DNA of 64,000 nucleotides. It comes from Aliihoeflea sp. 40Bstr573. Lineage in GTDB: Bacteria > Pseudomonadota > Alphaproteobacteria > Rhizobiales > Rhizobiaceae. The stretch covers positions 1-64,000 of the forward strand of contig NZ_JAAAMH010000007.1 of NCBI RefSeq assembly GCF_024105655.1. Direction: 5' to 3'. The notes below the pieces were generated by a model. It did not search any database and was not told the origin of the DNA. It worked only from the letters and a program-made list of their open reading frames with translations. Of the stretch, positions 8,071 through 19,399 are shown in pieces. Both the position numbers and the translations under genes were made by a program. Each line of letters starts with the position of its first letter. Within the stretch, counting starts at the first letter, position 1.

Positions 8071-8233
8071 CATCAAAGGTTCAACGCTCTGTCCAAAGGA
8101 GGGGATGAGGTTACGCCGGGATTGTCCATTATGATCTGCGGACCACCCCCATTTCGGGTGCCCGGCCGATTGGCGCATCCACGAGTTCCGTTAAACTGCG
8201 ACAAGCTGCAATCCGAGGCAGGAGCTACCGGAA

Positions 8234-9439
8234 ATGCTTTGCACCCTCTCTCTGTCCGCAGCCTACCTGGCAAGCGCGGCATTGGCGGTTCCAACACTGG
8301 TCTACTGTGTCCAATGCGTCGCTGGGCTGCTGCCGGGCCGCGCCGTCCATCCCCGGTACAGCGGTCCCCGGCCGACGGTGGCAATCATCGTGCCGGCTCA
8401 CAATGAGGAGGTCGTGATCGCGCACACGCTCGCGTCGGTTCGTCCGCAGCTGCGACCCGGCGACCGCCTCCTGGTCGTTTCCGACAACTGTACGGACCGG
8501 ACCGCAGCGCTGGCTGCCGAAGGCGGGGCGGAAGTGCTTGAACGCACGGACCCCGTGCGTCGAGGCAAGGGATACGCTCTGGATGCCGGCATGCGCTTCC
8601 TTACGGCGTCTCCTCGTGACCACGTCATGATCATTGACGCAGATTGCGAACTTGACGAAGGAGCGATCGACCATCTGGTTTCGATGGCCGCAGCCACCGG
8701 CGAACCAGTCCAGGGCAGGAACCTTATGAAGGCGCCGTGCGATGCTCCTTTGGAGACCCGCGTTGCGGAGTTCGCATACCTGATAAAAAACATGGTGCGA
8801 CCGGTCGGCATGAGCCGGCTTGGCCTTCCCTCCCCGTTGATGGGGACAGGCATGGTCCTCCCCTGGCACATCATGAACAAGGCGGATCTGGCACACGGAC
8901 ATATCACCGAGGACATCAAGTTGAGCATCGACGTCGCCCAGGAAGGACATTCCCCGGTCTTCTGTCCCGCCTACGGCATCGTAAGCTATTTTCCTCGCTC
9001 AAGCGGCGGCACTTTCTCGCAACGTCAGCGATGGGAAGGTGGGCACCTGAAGATGGTGGGAACGGCTTTGATGCACTTTCTCAAGCCGAGATCGATCAAG
9101 ACATGGCCCGCGTTCTTCCTTCTCCTCGACCGGATGGTTCCACCCATAACCCTTCTGTTCATGATGCTCGCTGGGCTCACGCTGCTGACGGCTCTCCTGG
9201 CATTTGCCGGTGCCGGCAGCGGGCCCCTCGCGGTCTCACTGAGCAGCCTGATGTTTTTCCTTGGGACAACATTCTCGGTGTGGGTTGCACGTGGAATGCA
9301 GATACTGCCGATTTCTCTGGTCAGAGCTGTGCCCCTGTTCATCCTGCAAAGAGCAGGAGGGTACTGGAAGTTTGCCACGACCGGTCTCGGTCGCGAGTGG
9401 ATTCGAACTGAACGGACGAAAGAACGCGACTCGTTCTGA
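8234..9439 (+). CDS. Glycosyltransferase family 2, membrane-anchored
   Basis: A 401-residue processive-type glycosyltransferase that would transfer a sugar from an activated donor at the inner face of the membrane. One N-terminal hydrophobic segment precedes the GT-A domain: VAIIVPAHNEE near residue 50, VVSDNCTD, GKGYALDAG, the metal-binding DADCE near 135, HITEDIKLS, and SQRQRWEGGH, the Q-x-x-RW motif of cellulose/hyaluronan-type enzymes. Several hydrophobic segments follow in the last 130 residues. The start has AGGAG nine bases upstream. It is divergent from the Pls/PosA remnant, and no other polysaccharide genes are adjacent, so the product is unknown. Confidence 0.88.
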   Translation: MLCTLSLSAAYLASAALAVPTLVYCVQCVAGLLPGRAVHPRYSGPRPTVAIIVPAHNEEVVIAHTLASVRPQLRPGDRLLVVSDNCTDRTAALAAEGGAEVLERTDPVRRGKGYALDAGMRFLTASPRDHVMIIDADCELDEGAIDHLVSMAAATGEPVQGRNLMKAPCDAPLETRVAEFAYLIKNMVRPVGMSRLGLPSPLMGTGMVLPWHIMNKADLAHGHITEDIKLSIDVAQEGHSPVFCPAYGIVSYFPRSSGGTFSQRQRWEGGHLKMVGTALMHFLKPRSIKTWPAFFLLLDRMVPPITLLFMMLAGLTLLTALLAFAGAGSGPLAVSLSSLMFFLGTTFSVWVARGMQILPISLVRAVPLFILQRAGGYWKFATTGLGREWIRTERTKERDSF

Positions 9440-9565
9440 TCACGGGCGAAGCGTCGCACAGCAATAGACGACAAACTTGAGCGAACTGTCTACCTTAGTG
9501 CTCATGCTGCAGGCACGCTTTGCGAAGCAATAGGGCCAGTTCGGTCATCAAGAAAGCAAAGCGAT

Positions 9566-10237
9566 TTAGTCGCCAAGTGCTTGTGCGAGCACCTCGCTTG
9601 ACGAATCCAGCGGCAGGGGCAAATCGATCGCATCTCCCCCGGGTGCGTAAACGCGTACGGTGCCTGCGCTTGCCCCCCGCATTGCCGCCAACAAATCCTG
9701 CGAAGCCACGGTTTCGACTAGGCACCCTTGTGCCGTGCACCGGGAAGGGACCATAGCCTCGCTGAAATCGCCGATCTTCACCTCCGCGCCGCGTTGTATG
9801 TCAATCCCGAGCGGCAGGGCCATCTGCAGGCGGGACACGTCGGTACCTTGCCCCTTCGCGATCGCAACGACCATTGCGACTTGATCGTTGACTCGAGCCC
9901 GCAGGATTGCTTGGCACATCCGCGGCTCGGCATCCTGTTCGACGCATTCGAGTTGCCAGCCATCTTCGTTCTCTGCGGTATTTGAAGTTTCCTGTGCAGA
10001 TTGTCTGGCCGGCTGCGGCGATGCCGGGGATCGGACAGACGGCGCCGACGGAACAGCTTGGGGAACACTGGTAGGCGGCGGTGCGGTAGGCGCCTGTTCG
10101 GGTAGCCCGATCGTCGGTTCGGACTGCAGCGGGGCCACCTGAGGTCCGTCATTTGGATTGATCTGCGCCCATGCGGACGAAGCCAGCAACATGAGCGTAC
10201 CGGCGATCAAGGGCGTCCCTATGCGAATTGGCGACAT
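9566..10237 (-). CDS. Invasion-associated locus B (IalB) family protein
   Basis: A secreted periplasmic protein of about 223 residues. The ATG at 10237 follows GGGAGA and opens a clear signal peptide (RIGTPLIAGTLMLLASSAWAQ). A proline/serine-rich linker of about 75 residues follows, then the IalB domain: DGWQLECVEQDAEPRMCQA with paired cysteines, LPLGIDIQRGAEVKI, and VPSRCTAQGCLVE with the second cysteine pair. IalB was named in Bartonella, but the family is widespread in non-pathogenic alphaproteobacteria and its biochemical role is not settled. An in-frame ATG 57 bases upstream would put extra residues before the signal peptide and lacks a ribosome site. It is convergent with the glycosyltransferase gene. 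Confidence 0.82.
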   Translation of the reverse strand: MSPIRIGTPLIAGTLMLLASSAWAQINPNDGPQVAPLQSEPTIGLPEQAPTAPPPTSVPQAVPSAPSVRSPASPQPARQSAQETSNTAENEDGWQLECVEQDAEPRMCQAILRARVNDQVAMVVAIAKGQGTDVSRLQMALPLGIDIQRGAEVKIGDFSEAMVPSRCTAQGCLVETVASQDLLAAMRGASAGTVRVYAPGGDAIDLPLPLDSSSEVLAQALGD

Positions 10238-10385
10238 GTTATCTCCCGCTCTCATGCTCGGCTGCAGGTGTACTTGAAACCTGCAGTCGCGCAATTCCTT
10301 TTATTGTGTCAGCGTCAGTTTCGGCCATTGCCTGCCACCGGCTGCATTGTTAATAGCAAACAATAAAAGGGGAAAGGGAGCCGGC

Positions 10386-10769
10386 ATGACGTGGCGTATC
10401 GCACTTGGCGCATTGATCTTGACGCTGGGCGTGGCTACGGCATCGGCCCAACCCTCGGACGCCTACGTCAACCAGGTCGATCGGTCGGCGCGAAGCGTCA
10501 TCGTGGCCCCGTCGGGTAACGGCCTGCACGGTTCCGCATACATCATACAAGTGCCGGAGACGGCTCGGCCCGTGCCCCCCCGCGTGGTCCAGCGCCGGGC
10601 GCCCGCCCGTGCCGCCGCGCCCGCGCCCGCTCCGCAGACGGCGGCCATCCAGCCTGCCCGGCAAGTCGCTGTCTATCCCTTTGTGGGCAGCGGCGTCGCG
10701 CTGGCGTTGTCGCAGGCGTCCGCAACGCGGCGCTTTCCCGACGTCGGAGCGGGCGTCGGCGCGCCGTAG
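10386..10769 (+). CDS. Small secreted protein upstream of the curli genes, function unknown
   Basis: A 127-residue protein that I do not recognise. The ATG at 10386 has GGGAG upstream and starts a signal peptide (MTWRIALGALILTLGVATASAQ). The mature part has a short polar segment with SVIVAPSGNGLHGSAYIIQV, a proline/alanine-rich linker, and a C-terminal segment. The NGLHGSAYIIQ piece faintly recalls a single curlin-like strand with Asn/Gln, but one unit is not enough to call it. It is on the same strand as csgG, about 290 bases upstream, and divergent from IalB. It may belong to the curli locus by position only. Confidence 0.6.
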   Translation: MTWRIALGALILTLGVATASAQPSDAYVNQVDRSARSVIVAPSGNGLHGSAYIIQVPETARPVPPRVVQRRAPARAAAPAPAPQTAAIQPARQVAVYPFVGSGVALALSQASATRRFPDVGAGVGAP

Positions 10770-11062
10770 TGAGGCTTATCCACGAAATGCTGCGCTCTCG
10801 CCAAGATTAACCTTGCCAGTTAACCAATGCAAACCAGGAAGGCGTTTCGTTTCGACAGTGTCCTTTGCGCCACAGTTCTACCGGCTTCGCTTTTCGACAG
10901 AATTGAATCGGTGTCCCCGCTTGTTAGGCCTCATCTGAACAGCTATTGAGCGTCGTTGTTGTGCGTCCGGCGCGACGAAGCAGGCAATGAGCAGTTGATC
11001 TGCGCGCATTCGATGAAGCGCGGTTCCACGCTCATGCCGGACGAGGGGATGAGGGGTTTGTG

Positions 11063-11917
11063 ATGGGTCATGCGGGCATCTTGAGTGCGCTGGTTTCGAC
11101 GAGTATCGCGCTGGCGGGCTGCGCGACGGGGCAGCAATTGCCGACGCCGCCCGCTCAACTGGAATCGCTGACCAAGACCACGCTCAAGGTCGAGGCGGTC
11201 CCCGCGCCCGCGCAGCCGGTCGACGTCGCCGTCTACGAATTCCCGGACCTCACCGGCCAGGCCAAGCCCAACGACAACTTCGCCGAATACAGCCGCGCCG
11301 TCACGCAGGGCGGCGCGAACCTTCTCATCGACGTGCTGAAGTCTACGGGCAACGGCCAGTGGTTCCGCGTGGTCGAGCGAGGCGGGCTGAAGAATCTCGT
11401 CCAGGAACGCACGCTGATCGAAAACACCCAGCGCGCCTACAGCCCCGGTGCGCCGAACCTGCCGCCCGTGCGCTTCGCCGGGCTCATTCTCGAAGGCGGC
11501 ATCGTCGGCTACGATTCCAACGAACGGACCGGCGGCGCCGGCGCCCGCTATCTCGGCATCGGCGGTGACGTCCAGTACCGCTCGGATCTCGTGACGATTT
11601 CGCTGCGCGCGGTCAGCGTCCAGACGGGCGAAGTCCTCGCCTCTACCACGACCTCCAAGCAGATATACTCGTATATGATGCGCGGTGGGGCCTACAAATT
11701 TGCTGCGCCCGAGGAGTTGCTCGAGATCGAGATCGGCAATTCTTACAACGATCCCGGCCATCTTGCCGTGCGCGAGGGAATCGAGTTGGCCGTCTATTCC
11801 TTGATCGTCGACGGTCTTAAGACCGGGCTCTGGCGTCTGGGAGATACCGCGGCACAGGAGAAGTTGATCCGAGAATTCTCGACATCGTACGCTAGAAAGC
11901 TGCCGCAAGGAGCGTAG
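11063..11917 (+). CDS. csgG: Curli secretion channel lipoprotein CsgG
   Basis: CsgG forms the nonameric outer-membrane pore that exports curli subunits. The N-terminus has a lipoprotein signal with the lipobox LAGC, then the CsgG fold: VAVYEFPDLTGQAKPND, VTQGGANLLIDVLKSTGNGQWFRVVERGG, NLVQERTLIENTQRAY, GLILEGGIVGYDSN, GARYLGIGGDVQYRSD and VSVQTGEVLASTTTSKQIYS, all close to the enterobacterial protein. At 284 residues it is the usual length. The ATG at 11063 follows GAGGGG; an overlapping GTG three bases earlier is possible. It is followed by a strong terminator, so it is expressed separately from the large curlin gene. CsgE, its usual gatekeeper, is not visible in the window. Confidence 0.95.
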   Translation: MGHAGILSALVSTSIALAGCATGQQLPTPPAQLESLTKTTLKVEAVPAPAQPVDVAVYEFPDLTGQAKPNDNFAEYSRAVTQGGANLLIDVLKSTGNGQWFRVVERGGLKNLVQERTLIENTQRAYSPGAPNLPPVRFAGLILEGGIVGYDSNERTGGAGARYLGIGGDVQYRSDLVTISLRAVSVQTGEVLASTTTSKQIYSYMMRGGAYKFAAPEELLEIEIGNSYNDPGHLAVREGIELAVYSLIVDGLKTGLWRLGDTAAQEKLIREFSTSYARKLPQGA

Positions 11918-12004
11918 TCGATGCAGTCGCACGGTTTCAGGTTGCCCTTGAATCGATAGCCGTGCCCTGACACGCTCTACCTGACATTATTTCTAAGTTC
12001 GTGC

Positions 12005-12040
12005 GCCTCGCCGGGAAACCGGCGGGGCGTATTTCGTTTT
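12005..12040 (+). terminator. Rho-independent terminator after csgG
   Basis: Stem GCCTCGCCGG (12005-12014), loop GAAA, stem CCGGCGGGGC (12019-12028) with one G-T pair, then a T-rich tail (ATTTCGTTTT). Confidence 0.85.
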
Positions 12041-12297
12041 GGCACATGCGCGCACAGTCTGACGCGGGATTTGTTTCAGTTCGAAGCATATCATGTCTCT
12101 TGTATCATTTTGAACGAGTCATCATGAATTTTAGAGAGTCACGATTCACCATTTAGCGATTTAGAAAGTATTTTGACTTGCGACTCTGCAATCGTGGATG
12201 ATATTAACCCGGCGTTAACCGTCGCTCCCAGGGGCACGGGGGGCAATTTTGGGCGGGGGAGGGTCTCCCGCGGGTCAAGGCGTCAGGGAGACAAGAC
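12041..12297 (+). promoter_or_regulatory. AT-rich control region and ribosome site of the giant curlin gene
   Basis: About 250 bases of unusually AT-rich sequence lie between the csgG terminator and the curlin start, unlike anything nearby. TTGACT at 12173-12178 could be a -35 element, but no -10 element lies at ideal spacing (GATATT at 12200 is 21 bases away). GGGAGA sits at 12286-12291, just before the ATG. Curli promoters are usually heavily regulated, and this length fits that. Confidence 0.45.
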
Positions 12298-15200
12298 ATG
12301 TCACGAACTAAACTTTTGGCGGGCGTCGCAATGATCGCCCTCACCGGCGCGGCGCACGCGCAGACGACGACCGAAGAGGGCAACAGCGCCTTCGTCGGCC
12401 AGCGCGACCGCAGCAACTATGCGTATCTGTCGCAGTTCGGCAGCAACGACGCGTTCGTCTATCAGTACGGACAGCAGAACGTCTTCACGCCGCTGCCGAC
12501 GAATGGCGAAGGCGGTGACGCGCAGGTCGGCTCCAACACGCTCGGCGTGATGCAGCGCGGCAGCCTCAACTTCATCGGCGACAACTTCCTGCAGAAGGGG
12601 AGCAACATCGCCGGCATCGCCCAGTTCGGCGAGGGCAACATCGTCAACAAGTTCCTGCAGACCGGCCAGAACCGTGGCGCGATCTTCCAGGGCGGTTATG
12701 CCAACCTGGCGCAGAGCGAGCAGACCGGCACCGGCAACGATACCGGCATCATCCAGTTGAATGGCAACGATTCGGCCGAGGGCAACTACGCATTCAGCAG
12801 CCAGCTCGACGGCACCAATGTTGAGGCGACCAACTCGTTTGCGGGCATCATCCAGGGCGGAACGACCAACGTCGCCACCAACGCGCAGAGCCAGCAGACC
12901 GGCTCGGACGCAACCATCGTGCAGGCCGGCGCACGCAACGTCGCCGCGAACACCCAGAAGATCGACATCTACAACCAGGCCTCGACGATCTCGCAGTATG
13001 ACATCGGCCAGGACAACGAGGCTGGCATCGTGCAGGTCGGCAGCGACAACGTCGCCGCCAACAGCCAGGATTCGAGCACGCGCGGCAGCGTCGGCATCAT
13101 TCAGGGCGGCGAACGCAACGACGCGTTCAACTTGCACACCGGCGGCACCGCCCACATTGCGGCGATCGCCCAGTTCGGCGACGACAACACCGCCACGAAC
13201 CTGAGCCGTGACGGCACCGGCAACGCGGCCACCACACTCCAGATCGGCGACGACAATATCGCCACGAACAATTCGAAGGACGGCTTCGGCGACGTCGCCG
13301 GCATCGTCCAGCTCGGCGAAACCAACACCGCCTTCAACAACCAGGTCGGCGCCGACAATCTTTCGCCGGGCACGAACGCTTCGGCCCTCATCGTCCAGGA
13401 CGGCGCGGGCAACATTGCGGCCAACCAGCAGACCGGCCAGGTCGATGGCGGCAACAATTCGGCCGGCACGCTCCAGGTCGGCGATCTCAACCAGGGATAC
13501 AACACCCAGTCCGCCGGCGTGGACAATGCCGCAGGCATCGCGCAGTTCGGCGACGGCAATACCGGCGTCAATACGCAGACCGGCGGTTCCGACGCGACGG
13601 CCCTGATCATCCAGGGCGGCTCGGGCAATGTCGGCGTCAATACGCAGACCAATGTCGATCCGACCTCGGCCACCATTCTCCAGCTCGGCTCCGGCAACAC
13701 CGGCGTCAACACGCAAACCGACGTCGTCAATTCCAGCGCGCTGATCGTGCAGTACGGCGAAGGCTCCGCCGACAATCTGGGCGCCAACACCCAGACGGAC
13801 GTGACCGGCAGCTCGGCCAACATCATTCAGGGCAATGACGGCGGCGCGCTCAACCAGGCCTTCAATACGCAGGTCGACGTGACGAGCTCGGCAGCCTGGA
13901 TCGCCCAGTTCGGCTCGGGCAATACGGGCGCGAACACGCAGCAGGCCGGTAGCGCGGGCGTCGATGCGGCGATCCTGCAGGTTGGCGACGGGAATGTTGC
14001 CAGCAACACGCAGGGTTCAGAAGTTGCGTATGCGGGCGCAAGCTTTACCGCGGACCTGAATAACTATTCGGGTGGTCTGGCAGGGCCGTTGTATGAACTC
14101 AACTGGCGATATCGAACTGACTACCTTGCCTCCAGCTTTGCCGGCGGTCTTGCTTCGGTGCGCGCCGAAAATTCTAATGCTGCTGTAGTTCAGGTCGGCG
14201 ACGTAAACGTTGCATCGAACACCCAACTTGGCCACTACACACCTGGGACCGGTGCATCGCAAGGGTACACGAAATTCGAGTGGAAGAAGATTGGTACCAG
14301 GCAAATCGGAACTGTTCCATTATTCGGCTGGCCCATCTACGGCGATGACTACGATTGGGTTCAGACTGAAAGTGTAGCGGCTGTCGACAATGCTCCTGGC
14401 ACCGTAATCCCAACCGTCGACTCCAACGCCATCATCGGTCAGTTCGGCGACGGCAACCTCGCTTCCAACCAGCAGATCGCGACCAACGGCGCCGATGCCG
14501 CTTCGGTCCAGATCGGCGACGGCAACGACGCCTTCAACGTCCAGACGCTGTCGGCGGACTCCAACGCGGCGAACCTGCAGATCGGCGACGACAATCTCGC
14601 CGCCAACAGCCAGACCGCTACCTCGGGCGCCAATGCGGCCAACGTTCAGGTCGGCGACGACAACATCGCCGGCAACACGCAGACCGCACTCACGACCGAC
14701 TCGAACGCGATGAACGTTCAGGTTGGCGACCTCAACACCGGCTCGAACTTGCAGACGGCCACGCTCGGTTCGGATGCAGCGAACGTCCAGGTCGGTGACG
14801 ACAACGATGCCGGCAACGTCCAGACCGCAACCGAGGCGGCGACCGCCGTCAACGTGCAGGTCGGCGACGACAATTTGGCGAGCAATCTCCAGGCCGGCGT
14901 GACCGATGCGCTCGCTGTCAACGTGCAGATCGGCGACGGCAACACGGCGAGCAACGCGCAGCAGAATGGCAGCTCCGCAGTCGCGGCTCTCATCGTGCAG
15001 GACGGCAACGGCAACAATGCCGCCAACGTCCAGGGCGTCGAGACGGTGACCCTGGAAGTGCTCGATATCCCCGTCAACACGGCAAACTCGCCTGCAACAT
15101 TGTCGGCAGCCGCGATCGTCCAGTCGGGTGATGGCAACACGGCAACCAACATCCAGGGCGGTTCCGTCGAAGTCACGAACATTCCGGGCATCTTGGAAGT

Positions 15201-15855
15201 CAACCTTCCCGGCCCAGTCGCGGCGTCTGTTGCAGGCATCGCGCAGTTCGGTGACGGCAACACGGCATCGACCTTCCAGCTCGCCAGCGTCGGCGCAATC
15301 TCCGGCACCGTTCAGATCGGCGACCTGAACACGGCGTCGACGGTGCAGTCGCTCGTTGCCGGCGTGGCGGCTGCCACGGTGCAGGACGGGACGAGCAACA
15401 CCGCCTCGACCCTGCAGACGACCTCCGCGCTCTCCGTTGCCGGAACGATCCAGAGCGGGACGGGCAACGCGGCCGGCACCACCCAGCAGAACGGTTCGGG
15501 CAACAACGCCCTCACCATTCAGCAGGGCAATGCGAACTCCGCCACGACGCTGCAGATCGCCAGCGTGGGCAGCAACTCGCTGACCGTCCAGAATGCCGAC
15601 AATTCCGGTGCTCTGGTCTCGCAGACGGGCAATGCTCAGAACTCCGCGGTCTATCAGTCCGGTGCCTACAGCTATGCGCTGGTGAACCAGATCGACAGCG
15701 GCAACTCTTCGCTGGTCGTTCAGCAGGGCACCGGCTCCAATGCCACAGAAGCCAACTTCGCATCGGTCGCGCAGTCGGGCTCCGCGAACAGCTCCTTCGT
15801 CGGCCAGTACGGGCGCGGCAACGTCGCCGTGGTCTCGCAGTCGAACGGGAACTGA
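12298..15855 (+). CDS. Giant curlin-repeat amyloid protein (CsgA-like)
   Basis: A secreted curlin of 1185 residues, about eight times the size of enterobacterial CsgA. A Sec signal (KLLAGVAMIALTGAAHAQ) is followed by roughly 45 repeats, hand-counted as Q-x-G-x-x-N units spaced about 22-23 residues, with forms such as VQVGDDNIAGNTQTA. These Asn/Gln/Gly patterns form the beta-solenoid of curli amyloid. Two stretches, about residues 577-622 and 642-710, break the pattern: they are rich in Trp, Tyr, Lys and Arg (ELNWRYRTDY, KFEWKKIG, DDYDWVQTE) and visibly less GC-rich. The C-terminus ends SQSNGN. Export through CsgG and chaperoning by CsgH are expected. A hairpin separates it from csgH. Being a major fibre subunit is an inference from repeats and context. 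Confidence 0.9.
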   Translation: MSRTKLLAGVAMIALTGAAHAQTTTEEGNSAFVGQRDRSNYAYLSQFGSNDAFVYQYGQQNVFTPLPTNGEGGDAQVGSNTLGVMQRGSLNFIGDNFLQKGSNIAGIAQFGEGNIVNKFLQTGQNRGAIFQGGYANLAQSEQTGTGNDTGIIQLNGNDSAEGNYAFSSQLDGTNVEATNSFAGIIQGGTTNVATNAQSQQTGSDATIVQAGARNVAANTQKIDIYNQASTISQYDIGQDNEAGIVQVGSDNVAANSQDSSTRGSVGIIQGGERNDAFNLHTGGTAHIAAIAQFGDDNTATNLSRDGTGNAATTLQIGDDNIATNNSKDGFGDVAGIVQLGETNTAFNNQVGADNLSPGTNASALIVQDGAGNIAANQQTGQVDGGNNSAGTLQVGDLNQGYNTQSAGVDNAAGIAQFGDGNTGVNTQTGGSDATALIIQGGSGNVGVNTQTNVDPTSATILQLGSGNTGVNTQTDVVNSSALIVQYGEGSADNLGANTQTDVTGSSANIIQGNDGGALNQAFNTQVDVTSSAAWIAQFGSGNTGANTQQAGSAGVDAAILQVGDGNVASNTQGSEVAYAGASFTADLNNYSGGLAGPLYELNWRYRTDYLASSFAGGLASVRAENSNAAVVQVGDVNVASNTQLGHYTPGTGASQGYTKFEWKKIGTRQIGTVPLFGWPIYGDDYDWVQTESVAAVDNAPGTVIPTVDSNAIIGQFGDGNLASNQQIATNGADAASVQIGDGNDAFNVQTLSADSNAANLQIGDDNLAANSQTATSGANAANVQVGDDNIAGNTQTALTTDSNAMNVQVGDLNTGSNLQTATLGSDAANVQVGDDNDAGNVQTATEAATAVNVQVGDDNLASNLQAGVTDALAVNVQIGDGNTASNAQQNGSSAVAALIVQDGNGNNAANVQGVETVTLEVLDIPVNTANSPATLSAAAIVQSGDGNTATNIQGGSVEVTNIPGILEVNLPGPVAASVAGIAQFGDGNTASTFQLASVGAISGTVQIGDLNTASTVQSLVAGVAAATVQDGTSNTASTLQTTSALSVAGTIQSGTGNAAGTTQQNGSGNNALTIQQGNANSATTLQIASVGSNSLTVQNADNSGALVSQTGNAQNSAVYQSGAYSYALVNQIDSGNSSLVVQQGTGSNATEANFASVAQSGSANSSFVGQYGRGNVAVVSQSNGN
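12380..15850 (+). repeat. Tandem curlin repeat array in DNA (about 66-69 bp unit)
   Basis: The coding sequence is a long array of degenerate units around CAGGTCGGCGACGACAAC or similar, one per curlin strand-turn-strand. The middle part (14450-15000) is the most regular, with many near-identical units, suggesting recent expansion. Units near both ends are more diverged. Such arrays are prone to slippage and assembly collapse. Confidence 0.85.
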
Positions 15856-15861
15856 TGATCT

Positions 15862-15895
15862 GGCGGGGCGTCGCGAGGCGCCCCGCCATTCTTTT
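15862..15895 (+). terminator. Hairpin with T-run between giant curlin and csgH (attenuator)
   Basis: Perfect 9-bp stem GGCGGGGCG (15862-15870) with CGCCCCGCC (15879-15887), loop of 8, followed by ATTCTTTT. It starts 6 bases after the curlin stop and ends 20 bases before csgH. It may reduce read-through so that the subunit is made in excess over the chaperone. Confidence 0.8.
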
Positions 15896-15914
15896 CGAAA
15901 TCCGGGAGGCTCGC

Positions 15915-16319
15915 ATGATCGGCAAATCGCTCATCGCAACGGGTCTCCTCCTTTTCTCCAGCGCAAGCGAAGCTTCGATGAACGGCCAGACGATCGACGG
16001 CGACATCCTCGACCCACGCATCGCCGCATGCGGCGTGACGGTCGACGGCAATGGCGGCGTGTTCCTGCGGCCCTTCATCGAAACCTCGCACGAACTGGCC
16101 GGCACCTACCGCTTCGCCATCTCCAGCTGGTCGGGCTCCAACTCGAACACGACCAGCCAGGCGAACCGGTTTTCCGGAGGGACGCTCGGCTCGAGCGTGG
16201 TCGGAATCGGGCGGGCCTCCAAGGTCTCGATCGACCTCGAGGTGACGGAAGCGAACGGCGCGGCGCTCTGCCGCGTGAAGACGGACATCGATCTCGACGA
16301 GGGCGCGATCCGGCTGTGA
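15915..16319 (+). CDS. csgH: CsgH-like curli chaperone / amyloid inhibitor
   Basis: CsgH is a small periplasmic beta-sandwich protein found in alphaproteobacterial curli loci that holds back subunit polymerisation. The 134-residue product has a signal peptide (MIGKSLIATGLLLFSSASEA), then VTVDGNGGVFLRPFIE, HELAGTYRFAISSWSGSNSN and TSQANRFSGG, the strand pattern of that family, and two cysteines (ACGV and LCRV) that could pair. The ATG at 15915 has GGGAGG upstream; a longer frame from 15855 runs through the terminator hairpin and is rejected. It lies between two curlin genes in the same direction, which supports the assignment. Identification is by pattern and context, not by alignment. Confidence 0.75.
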   Translation: MIGKSLIATGLLLFSSASEASMNGQTIDGDILDPRIAACGVTVDGNGGVFLRPFIETSHELAGTYRFAISSWSGSNSNTTSQANRFSGGTLGSSVVGIGRASKVSIDLEVTEANGAALCRVKTDIDLDEGAIRL

Positions 16320-16350
16320 GGCGCGGATCGGGGCAACAGGGGACTGGCAC

Positions 16351-16956
16351 ATGACGAGCTGGACGAAACGACTTGCAGGCGCAATGGCCGCGCTGGCCCT
16401 GTCGGTGGGCATTGCCGCGGCGACGGAAATCCGCATCGTCAACGAGGCGGACTATGGCGGTGCGCGCGCGGAGGCGGTCGTCTCCAGCCTGATGCAGCCG
16501 ATCAACCCGTTCGTCGCCGGGCAGGCCGGCAACACGACCTCGATCGCGCAGATCGGCACCGGCCATTCGGTCAATTCGTCGATCGAGGGGCATTCCAGCG
16601 CCTCGCTGATCGCGCAGGAAGGCACACGCAATCGCGCGGTTCAGGCGATAGAGGGCAGCAATTCGGCGCTGCTCCTCGTCCAGTCGGGCACCAGCAACAA
16701 CGTCCTGCAGGCGAGCCGCGGCGACAACAACTTCCAGCTCGTCGGCGTGTCGGGCAGCAACAACGATGTCGGTTACGTGCAGGTGGGCAACAATCTTGCC
16801 GGCGTCCTCGACGTGCGCAATTCGCACAACACAACCGTCGTCGCGTTCCAGACCAATCAGTCGCGCAACTTCCTGATGCCGACGGGCATCAGTGGGCTGA
16901 ATAACGTCGCCGTCGTGATTGTGCCCGGCAAGATGTATGTGCTACCGAAGAGATAA
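16351..16956 (+). CDS. Curlin-repeat protein (CsgA/CsgB-like), about five repeats
   Basis: A secreted protein of 201 residues with a signal peptide (GAMAALALSVGIAAA). An N-terminal segment contains SSLMQPINPF, also present in the minus-strand curlin at about 17,560 (TSELMQPI), then about five to six curlin units: TTSIAQIGTGHSVNSSIEG, ASLIAQEGTRNRAVQAIEG, ALLLVQSGTSNNVLQASRG and so on. The C-terminal 40 residues are not repeat-like and end in a basic tail (MYVLPKR), a feature associated with the nucleator CsgB in enterobacteria. I would guess a minor or nucleating subunit, but this is inference. Confidence 0.8.
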   Translation: MTSWTKRLAGAMAALALSVGIAAATEIRIVNEADYGGARAEAVVSSLMQPINPFVAGQAGNTTSIAQIGTGHSVNSSIEGHSSASLIAQEGTRNRAVQAIEGSNSALLLVQSGTSNNVLQASRGDNNFQLVGVSGSNNDVGYVQVGNNLAGVLDVRNSHNTTVVAFQTNQSRNFLMPTGISGLNNVAVVIVPGKMYVLPKR

Positions 16957-17007
16957 TCTGTCCACCGGCTGTATTGCGCCGTTGTTCTTGTTCCGGAGGA
17001 TTCTCAA

Positions 17008-17277
17008 ATGAAGGTTTTGGCTGCCGCTCTTCTTGCTGGCGCTGTGCTTGCCGGCGGCGCCGCCCAGGCATCCGAGCTCGTCTATCGGCCGATCAACCCG
17101 TCGCTCGGCGGCGATCCGCTGAATGGAAACTGGCTCCTGTCGCAGGCGACGGCGCAGACCGAAGGCGGCGGCTCGCCGGGCTTCTCGATCGACTTCCCGG
17201 ATTTCGGCGGCGTCGCGCAGCCCGATCCGGATCTCGTCGAGCAGCCCGAGGTCGATCCCGCCGGCACCGGCGACTGA
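17008..17277 (+). CDS. csgF: Curli assembly protein CsgF
   Basis: CsgF binds the outer mouth of CsgG and couples secretion to nucleation. After a signal peptide (VLAAALLAGAVLAGGAAQA) the mature protein starts ELVYRPINPSLGGDPLNGNWLLSQATAQ, the most conserved part of the family; in Escherichia coli this N-terminus inserts into the CsgG channel. At 89 residues it is clearly shorter than the enterobacterial protein (138); the C-terminal half is reduced to an acidic, proline-rich tail. The ATG has GGAGG upstream. It is last in the plus-strand run of curli genes and is convergent with another curlin-like gene. Confidence 0.9.
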   Translation: MKVLAAALLAGAVLAGGAAQASELVYRPINPSLGGDPLNGNWLLSQATAQTEGGGSPGFSIDFPDFGGVAQPDPDLVEQPEVDPAGTGD

Positions 17278-17309
17278 CGCCTGCGGGCCGGCCGTCCGCT
17301 TGAGCGCGA

Positions 17310-17699
17310 TCAGCGCTGGCGGATGATCGCGACGTTGCCGTTGCCCTGCTGCGAAACCATCGCCTGGTGACCGATCCCGCGCTGCGTGATCGAGGCGACG
17401 TTGTTGAGGCCGATCTGCTGGATCAGGCCGACATTGCGGCTGCCGAACTGGCTGACCGTGCCCTGGTTGCCGCTGCCCTGCTGCCAGACGAGGCCGAGAT
17501 TTCCCGGGCCGCTCGGCTGCAAGGCGGGCATCTGCATGGCGAGTTCGACGATCGGCTGCATCAGCTCGCTGGTCGTCATCCGCACGGAAGCGGACGTCGG
17601 CGCGATCTGCTGGATATAGGCCGGCGAAGTGAAACTTTGGGCACCAGCCTTGGTGCTAAGGGCGATCAACAAAATGACTGAAATCAGCGCTCTATTCAT
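17310..17699 (-). CDS. Curlin-repeat protein (CsgB-like), opposite strand
   Basis: A 129-residue secreted protein with a signal peptide (ALISVILLIALSTKAGAQ). The middle has SELMQPIVELAMQMP, shared with the plus-strand curlin at 16.4-16.9 kb, followed by three to four curlin units (LVWQQGSGNQGTVSQFG, RNVGLIQQIGLNNVASITQ, HQAMVSQQGNGNVAII). It ends in RQR, and a basic C-terminal repeat is typical of the nucleator CsgB. It is read toward csgF and must have its own promoter near 17.70-17.79 kb. It is probably the nucleator or a minor subunit. Confidence 0.8.
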   Translation of the reverse strand: MNRALISVILLIALSTKAGAQSFTSPAYIQQIAPTSASVRMTTSELMQPIVELAMQMPALQPSGPGNLGLVWQQGSGNQGTVSQFGSRNVGLIQQIGLNNVASITQRGIGHQAMVSQQGNGNVAIIRQR

Positions 17700-18532: not shown

Positions 18533-19399
18533 ATGTCCAACGCGCTGCGCATCGCCATCGGCCGGTTCGGGCGGGTGGCTCTTCTCGACATGGACAGGCC
18601 GTTGGTCCGCCACGCGCACCCGCATTGCCACGTGCTGCTGAAGGTCGAGGGGGCGGACACGCAGTTTTCGGTGCGCGACCGCACTGTGCTCCTGACCGAC
18701 GAAAGCGCCGTGCTGATCAACGCCTGGGAGCCGCATGCCTACGCGCATGATCTTTCACGGCCGAAGACGGTGATCCTGGCGCTCTACATCGAACCCCAAT
18801 GGTTGGAACATTTCCGCAAGAACTGGGGTGCCAGCCATGCGCCGGACTTCTTCGAGTCGGCGGTTGGCTCGATCACGCCGAATATCAGGCGGCTTGCCCG
18901 CGAGCTGGCAGAGGCAATGGTGCATGCACCGCAAGCCGCCGCATTGCACGAGGACATGCTCGGCCGGCTGATGATCACGGTCATCGAGCGTTTTACCGCT
19001 TGGCGCGGCGTGCCTCAGTCGATCAGCGCGATGGCCGTGCGCGAGCCGTCCGATTTCCGCATCCGCAAGGCCGTCATGCTGATGAAGGAGAGCCCCGGCA
19101 CGATCTCGGACATGGACACGCTGGCGGCCGATGTGGGCATGTCGCGGGCGCATTTCTTCCGACAGTTCGAAAGTGTCATGCGCGTCAGCCCCCGCGTCTA
19201 TCTCAACGTTCAGCGGCTCGAACGCGCCGTGAGCGCCGTCTCGGACGGACAAGAGACCTTCGCCGACATCGGCGAGCGGCTCGGCTTTTCGGTTCCGGCG
19301 CATTTTTCGCGCTTCTTCCACGATCACGCCGGGTCGTCGCCGAGCGTGTTCCGCTCCGTGACGCGTCTCGCTGGGCCGCAATTTGAGACTCCTCGGTAA
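18533..19399 (+). CDS. AraC family transcriptional regulator
   Basis: A 288-residue one-component regulator. The N-terminal half is a cupin-like ligand-binding domain (RHAHPHCHVLLKVEG near residue 25, DESAVLINAWEPHAY). The C-terminal half has the two AraC helix-turn-helix motifs: TLAADVGMSRAHFFRQFESV and FADIGERLGFSVPAHFSRFFHDHAG, then SPSVFR. It lies 95 bases upstream of the molybdenum hydroxylase operon on the same strand, so it most likely controls that operon in response to an aromatic or related acid. Effector and operator are unknown. Confidence 0.88.
   Translation: MSNALRIAIGRFGRVALLDMDRPLVRHAHPHCHVLLKVEGADTQFSVRDRTVLLTDESAVLINAWEPHAYAHDLSRPKTVILALYIEPQWLEHFRKNWGASHAPDFFESAVGSITPNIRRLARELAEAMVHAPQAAALHEDMLGRLMITVIERFTAWRGVPQSISAMAVREPSDFRIRKAVMLMKESPGTISDMDTLAADVGMSRAHFFRQFESVMRVSPRVYLNVQRLERAVSAVSDGQETFADIGERLGFSVPAHFSRFFHDHAGSSPSVFRSVTRLAGPQFETPR

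Follow-up and report, generated by a model that had tools for sequence, protein, structure and literature searches.

A giant curlin gene in a csg locus

The stretch of DNA analyzed here (the window) comprises 64,000 nucleotides of Aliihoeflea sp. 40Bstr573 (contig NZ_JAAAMH010000007.1, positions 1 to 64,000) and contains a csg locus in which the gene downstream of csgG codes for a curlin of 1185 residues, referred to as the giant curlin (Table 1). Its reading frame is intact and starts with ATG, and a signal peptide, judged by eye, is evident in the sequence (MSRTKLLAGVAMIALTGAAHA). We counted 39 strict Q-x-G-x-x-N motifs, compared to a mean of 1.5 and a maximum of 6 in 1000 shuffled versions. 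The most frequent spacing between motifs was 23 residues, and 24 of them had the form QxGxxNxAxxxQ. A repeat matrix, trained on ten giant curlins that included this one, identified 32 well-formed repeat units (mean in 50 shuffles, 0.02). Adding the degenerate stretches by length, a manual count made without a program, gave about 43 repeats, and the figure of about 45 in an earlier note on this DNA was thus a fair one. The Pfam model Curlin_rpt (PF07012) scored 30.2 bits, above its cut-off of 20.7, whereas NCBIfam NF007470, a narrow CsgA equivalog of 150 positions, scored 82.8 bits, below its cut-off of 160. Using phmmer, residues 235-504 were matched to the CsgA of Pontibacter korlensis (PDB 8c50) with an E value of 3e-16. 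AlphaFold models of the full-length protein and of a segment were of low confidence (mean predicted local distance difference test score [pLDDT], 37.7 and 46.2), and a Foldseek search with the segment model, itself of poor confidence, returned 0 matches at E<=0.001. The earlier proposal of a single giant chain, encoded with CsgG, CsgF, and CsgH, that would form a solenoid many times the length of a standard subunit is supported; the solenoid fold would follow from the family, both models being of low confidence.

Table 1. Features of the csg locus in the window
Feature	Coordinates	Strand	Basis
Small exported-looking protein, upstream of csgG	10386..10769	+	No Pfam match
CsgG, outer-membrane export pore	11060..11917	+	PF03783, E 1.1e-50
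Giant curlin, ~43 curlin repeats, 1185 amino acids (aa)	12298..15855	+	Open reading frame, Pfam, motif count, repeat matrix, phmmer
Signal peptide of giant curlin, residues 1-21	12298..12360	+	By eye
Variable block, ~residues 574-705: insertion 1, one repeat, insertion 2	14016..14412	+	Ortholog identity, G+C content at third codon positions, architecture
Most regular repeats, residues 715-900, 8 units of 23-24 aa	14440..14997	+	Motif/matrix scan; in register with ortholog
Second, short insertion pair, ~residues 913-976, around one repeat	15034..15225	+	Two 41-residue units (repeat matrix)
CsgH, curli anti-aggregation chaperone	15918..16319	+	NF041112, 54.9 bits, cut-off 35
Minor curlin, weakly CsgB-like, 201 aa	16351..16956	+	CsgB model, E 1.6e-4
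Short CsgF, 89 aa	17008..17277	+	PF10614, above cut-off
Divergently placed short curlin, 129 aa	17310..17699	-	PF07012, E 1.7e-10

Ten giant curlins share a pair of long insertions

We compared ten giants from the family and the order, named here by genome: the window, G002, G066, G110, G633, G666, G689, G699, G304, and G209. Two candidates were omitted, a curlin of G031 with charged repeats (locus L014) and a 712-residue open reading frame (ORF) of G129 with an autotransporter fusion (L016). The closest ortholog of the window's giant is that of G002, a Rhizobiaceae metagenome-assembled genome, in JACVCH010000015.1 (L011); the G002 and L011 stretches were checked and are identical. All ten giants contained two consecutive long inter-repeat insertions, of 44 to 68 residues (first) and 49 to 85 residues (second), which enclosed exactly one repeat. 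The borders of this arrangement are kept: insertion 1 follows an N-x-Q-G end, the enclosed repeat has the Q-x-G-x-x-N form, and an S-x-A-x-I strand comes after insertion 2. Inside the loops, hardly any residue other than these borders was conserved across the ten proteins. By the curlin layout given in PMC10192328, the two insertions come after motif b and would fall in arc 2, so that two successive coils would project them from the same edge. In the window, the residues W, Y, F, H, K, and R made up a fraction of 0.18 of the block formed by both insertions and the enclosed repeat (the variable block), compared to 0.05 of its flanks, and the block had no match in Pfam.

The distance from the end of the long pair to the C terminus was 358 to 482 residues in the window, G002, G066, and G666 and 196 to 263 residues in the other six; near this latter site, the window, G002, and G066 carry the short pair instead. 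The ends of the window and G002 proteins (200 residues each) were 92% and 98% shared, compared to only 36% and 30% for the loops. Divergence of the loops in this close pair is about as large as that seen between loops of different genera. For G110 and G633, the loops were 66% and 54% shared and the ends 50% and 66%. Loop types recurred: insertion 1 of G110, G633, G689, and G304 was 44 to 66% shared, and insertion 2 of G699 and G209 was 46% shared. In rough, short gapped alignments, insertion 1 of G002 was nearer to those of G699, G110, and G209 (40 to 42%) than to that of the window. A tree of the flank (C-terminal 230 residues) rejected a clade of G110, G633, G689, and G304 (approximately unbiased test [p-AU], 0.0016); this grouping was chosen after viewing the loops, which lie at a position other than that of the window's long pair, and we give the result little weight.

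A sharply bounded block diverges between near-identical orthologs

Outside the variable block, the giant curlins of the window and G002 are close to each other. Their DNA identity was 94.6% over residues 1-570, 95.9% over residues 706-955, and 97.2% over residues 973-1185, with a number of synonymous substitutions per synonymous site (dS) of 0.09-0.16. In intervals of 100 bases, identity was 94% at 13901-14000, dropped to 49-55% with many gaps across 14001-14400, and then returned to 87% and 95%. BLAST alignments ended at 14015 and resumed at 14413. A codon alignment gave DNA identities of 40.8% for insertion 1 and 37.9% for insertion 2, with more than 83% of the synonymous sites differing in the two insertions. 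The repeat between them differed at 76% of only about 14 synonymous sites. The second insertion of the short pair (residues 956-972) was also diverged, with 54% DNA identity to G002. Point mutation would hardly suffice to saturate a block in a gene with a dS of 0.09-0.16. These comparisons leave two routes, replacement of the block by DNA of divergent origin or homogenization of the flanks around an old polymorphism, and both imply recombination around a distinct allele.

We found no other copies of the block in the window's draft genome, where weak matches were confined to the same gene. The viral contigs searched contained no relative. A plasmid search matched 5 records, all at <60% identity and 0 of them covering 80% of the query. 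In the open-access literature searched, neither a variable curlin block nor paired, exchanged loops were found.

The block also has an odd codon composition. The G+C content at third codon positions (GC3) was reduced in the block of ten of ten giants relative to the remainder of each gene, and in eight of them it was under that of every equal-length flank interval, the exceptions being G633 and G304. When amino acids were matched, the GC3 deficit was again present in all ten, with z from -2.0 (G304) to -11.5 (G699) and a value of -9.2 in the window. Measured against five other genes of the window, GC3 was low in the window's block (z -7.3) and high in the repeats (z +6.1).

The repeat array predates the split of the two species

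The earlier note had singled out 14450-15000 as the most regular repeats and proposed a recent expansion there. The regularity was confirmed, with 8 units at 14440-14997. We rejected a recent expansion, since the same repeats are present in G002, in register and at about 95% DNA identity, while off-register repeat matches reached only 66-70%. This difference indicates that the array, including 14440-14997, was in place before the two species separated. The ratio of nonsynonymous to synonymous substitution rates (dN/dS) in the repeats was 0.10-0.17 between the window and G002.

Interpretation and alternatives

Taken as a whole, and partly by analogy, we interpret the giant curlin as a curli scaffold that displays a loop pair exchanged by recombination, a reading we consider moderately probable. 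Curli subunits are exported via CsgG as unfolded chains, with CsgF at the pore. Along this route, CsgG and the short CsgF would export the giant chain unfolded and without CsgE, and CsgH would keep it soluble in the periplasm; CsgC-like proteins inhibit aggregation, according to PMC4838910. The ~43 repeats would stack into one unusually long beta-solenoid subunit of ~20 nm, as calculated from the rise of 4.8 A per repeat given in PMC10192328, and the CsgB-like and divergent curlins would nucleate or cap it. Each subunit would bear one lateral loop pair, set into the outer arc (arc 2) of each of two successive coils, with the repeats acting as the conserved scaffold and the loop pair as the variable display element. 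Recombination with divergent alleles would let lineages replace this pair as a unit. The loops would then most likely form a recognition patch, for adhesion specificity or for escape from phages or predators, that recurs about every 20 nm along the fiber. More tentatively, we propose that alleles of the paired-loop patch move from species to species through recombination, with diversifying selection acting on them and the amyloid solenoid as the conserved scaffold, which would be an amyloid parallel to flagellin or S-layer variation; this view is plausible, but we hold it with some reserve. The gene, its locus, the paired architecture, the sharply bounded diverged block, and the unusual codon composition are seen directly in the sequence, whereas exchange of the block by recombination, the solenoid fold, exposure of the loops, the export route, the roles of the partner proteins, and the purpose of the variation are inferred.

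Several observations weigh against this interpretation. The biased codon use of the repeats (z +6.1) may account for part of the GC3 contrast, and the deficit is weak in G304 (z -2.0) and G633 (z -3.1). The N-terminal repeats vary in part, and single 100-base intervals outside the block ranged from 82% to 100% identity. Divergence of the block between near-identical genes was seen in one close pair only, and the absence of a second block copy from the draft genome leaves no evidence of within-strain switching. The long pair is differently placed among the giants, so some of the loop comparisons are between non-equivalent sites. A tree of the inserts had no supported branch and did not reject a clade of the window and G002 (p-AU 0.3), which leaves a gene-tree conflict unproven for this pair. 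Exposure of the loops draws no support from the AlphaFold models (pLDDT 37.7, 46.2) or from Foldseek.

Four other explanations were considered. The loop pair could serve to bind a ligand or act as an enzyme, as a module that is fixed in each lineage and adapted to the substrate of that lineage, rather than being an element of escape or variation. The recurring loop types (44-66% for insertion 1 of G110, G633, G689, and G304; 46% for insertion 2 of G699 and G209) and the enrichment of the window block in W, Y, F, H, K, and R (0.18 versus 0.05 in the flanks) favor such a module; the lack of a Pfam match and the near absence of conserved residues inside the loops, borders aside, across the ten giants argue against it, and we regard it as a serious but rather unlikely possibility. 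Alternatively, the protein may be an ordinary, very long major curlin within the known range of 4-62 repeats, whose unconstrained spacer loops drift fast. The published range and the arc insertions of degenerate curlins, both described in PMC10192328, agree with this, as does a block without Pfam match. Neutral drift, however, would hardly saturate the synonymous sites of a block whose flanks have a dS of 0.09-0.16. The repeat between the loops has diverged too, although on only about 14 synonymous sites, and the edges of the block are sharp. The GC3 shift and the conservation of loop borders and paired placement, each in ten of ten giants, likewise speak against drift, which we consider improbable.

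It is also conceivable that the loops represent the older state and that the flanking repeats and csgH-csgF were recently homogenized between the two species by transfer, without selection on the loops. Consistent with this, identity between the window and G002 reaches 98.5-99% in csgH and the csgB-like gene, versus 87% in the conserved genes right of the cluster, and the cluster lies elsewhere in G002. The divergence of the loops nevertheless goes far beyond the 87% background, which excludes a simple vertical divergence, and conversion would have to act on both sides while sparing just the loops; we give this explanation little credence. An assembly artifact or a decaying gene could be suspected because the window's genome is a draft of 69 contigs and because genome G135 holds a truncated remnant of a giant with no csgG in 12 kb. 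The intact frame, the dN/dS of 0.10-0.17 in the repeats, the same repeat layout in an independent assembly, and the presence of giants in two single-contig genomes make either one extremely improbable.

If the reading of a scaffold that carries an exchanged loop pair at regular spacing is correct, curli, which have mostly been treated as uniform fibers, would be biofilm amyloids able to act as specific and variable recognition surfaces. What recognizes curli would become testable, and the giants would provide a natural template for peptide display on an amyloid scaffold. It would also mean that a chain presumed to cross CsgG in unfolded form can accommodate insertions of 44-85 residues.

Comparison with known systems

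The giant shares its motif, the 23-residue period, the csgG/csgF locus, and, as judged by eye, the signal peptide with CsgA and other curlins (PF07012; Pontibacter korlensis R15.5, PDB 8c50). It differs from CsgA in having ~43 repeats, compared to 5 in Escherichia coli and 15.5 in P. korlensis, and in its conserved block of paired loops, which is diverged between orthologs that are otherwise nearly identical. The curlins of a degenerate class (Sediminicola and Roseovarius), as described in PMC10192328, likewise have arc-2 or strand insertions in or between repeats; in contrast, the insertions of the giants (44-68 and 49-85 residues) are paired around one repeat and look recombinationally exchanged. 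What is new here is this paired, apparently exchanged loop block, while the repeats and the locus belong to the known curlin family, below the narrow CsgA cut-off. As in the alphaproteobacterial csg operons reported in PMC3521004, csgH stands beside the curlin genes and csgE is missing; the window differs in having a giant in place of the standard curlin, with a short CsgF retained. Unlike the complete enterobacterial curli system, the window's genome has no csgE match.

Flagellin and S-layer cassettes represent surface filaments whose ends are conserved and whose variable centers can be exchanged. By analogy, the giants share with them a conserved polymerizing scaffold, a divergent segment, and sharp borders. 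The scaffold here would instead be a curlin solenoid, and no second cassette was found in the draft genome.

Genes surrounding the giant curlin

The profile matches in Table 1 confirm CsgG, CsgF, and CsgH, which the earlier note had placed in this locus; the CsgB-like curlin, the divergent curlin, and the long pair of non-repeat insertions midway along the giant go beyond it. The match to CsgG at 11060-11917 was the only one in the window's genome. The NCBIfam model recognized CsgH above its cut-off, whereas the Pfam CsgH model scored under its own. The start of CsgH was placed by eye, at an internal ATG that precedes a signal-peptide-like stretch, and a comparison with solved structures gave chance-level matches only (best E 0.24). 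The minor curlin scored 21.4 bits with the CsgB model, versus a cut-off of 165, and was also below the cut-off of Curlin_rpt. The short CsgF matched just positions 4-47 of the 132-position profile, and the N-terminal CsgF region alone is recognizable. Homologs of csgH, the csgB-like gene, csgF, and the divergent curlin were present beside all nine other giants, and csgG was beside eight of the nine. The small protein at 10386-10769 had homologs upstream of csgG at five of the nine loci (G002, G066, G110, G633, and G666). We obtained 0 matches to CsgE (PF10627) in the window's genome, using a search that finds the E. coli control. This is in keeping with the statement in PMC3521004 that Alphaproteobacteria are without csgE.

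In G135 (L025:6313-7014, minus strand), the last fifth or so of a giant curlin is left, without signal peptide or N-terminal region. The csgH, csgB-like, csgF, and divergent curlin genes are kept beside it, and we saw no csgG within the 12 kb examined, so this operon is apparently decaying. We rejected the short form as an ancestral small curlin, as it is a remnant that lacks the signal peptide and the N-terminal region.

The csg cluster is accessory and mosaic

Positions 9608-17699 of the window matched contig C25 of G002, while the genes from 18533 rightward matched its contig C27. In G001 and G004, the genes matching the window from 18533 onward are preceded by DNA without similarity to that of the window. 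As the neighbors differ between genomes, the csg cluster is accessory and differently placed in the two species. The 98.5-99% identity of csgH and the csgB-like gene between the window and G002, compared to 87% for the shared genes right of the cluster, indicates a recent transfer, which on these sequence identities probably occurred between the two lineages. csgG was only 90% identical, and the csg cluster is therefore itself mosaic.

The intergenic region before the giant curlin (11918-12297) had 46-74% identity to the ortholog in 11901-12200, between well-conserved flanking genes, and regulation of the giant may differ between the window and the ortholog. At the left edge of the cluster, a 1.4-kb stretch (8075-9451) with a family-2 glycosyltransferase ORF (8234-9439) recurs at 98% identity elsewhere in the window's genome (G000 C13:19883-21259), which suggests a recent duplication or a mobile gene. 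On the right, an AraC-type regulator and a xanthine-dehydrogenase-like gene block (named by eye) start at 18533 and are conserved in four of the five genomes of the genus. The DNA upstream of this block in the window had no match upstream of the same block in the other three, and the region looks like an insertion hot spot.

Giant curlins are uncommon but genuine

The earlier note had presented the length of the gene as beyond what is known. This was not borne out, since curlins with between 4 and 62 repeats, as judged by the number of profile hits, are published, and the repeat averages 23 residues (PMC10192328); we dropped length as the chief novelty. We surveyed samples of family, order, and class genomes, which partly overlap. 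The curlin profile matched in 42 of 151 family genomes, and 4 of these (the window, G066, G031, and G110) had a frame of at least 1000 residues at the match. In the class, 9 of 289 genomes were matched, and the longest open frame besides that of the window was 763 residues. With the giant and its ortholog as queries, 27 of 394 family genomes were matched and giants were found in 8, with open frames of 1066-1387 residues. The same queries matched 12 of 397 genomes of the order, where long frames besides the window were those of G304 (1316) and G209 (739). A profile of the ten giants, applied to 385 class genomes at a stricter limit, matched three: the window and two with frames of 226 and 698 residues, the latter with an internal stop. 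Within the genus, a giant was present in two of five genomes, the same two that have csgG. With these counts for the family and the genus, the giant form is neither unique nor routine among relatives; it is genuine yet uncommon. An assembly product, raised in the earlier note as a concern, is unlikely for the class, as G633 and G304, whose genomes are single contigs, also carry giants.

Another curlin locus of the window's genome, L023 (G000 C2:38000-52000), contains two short curlins of 133 and 144 aa. In several relatives (L017, L018, L019, L020, and L021), two to five curlin ORFs of middle size (~390-590 residues) are clustered in place of a single giant; the lengths were taken from the first possible start, and some may be overstated. 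None of these tandem ORFs passed the unit finder, and they stand outside the paired-loop counts. The omitted curlin of G031 (L014:7077-10484, minus strand) spans 1135 residues, and its curlin repeats (PF07012, E 1e-37) are highly charged; this ORF differs in detail from the window's giant, and its N-terminal part may stem from a wrongly assigned start. The ORF of G129 (L016:7692-9830, minus strand) combines curlin repeats (PF07012, E 4e-9) and an autotransporter beta-domain (PF03797, E 6e-39) in 712 residues, a fusion that suggests, from its domain composition, export of curlin repeats without CsgG.

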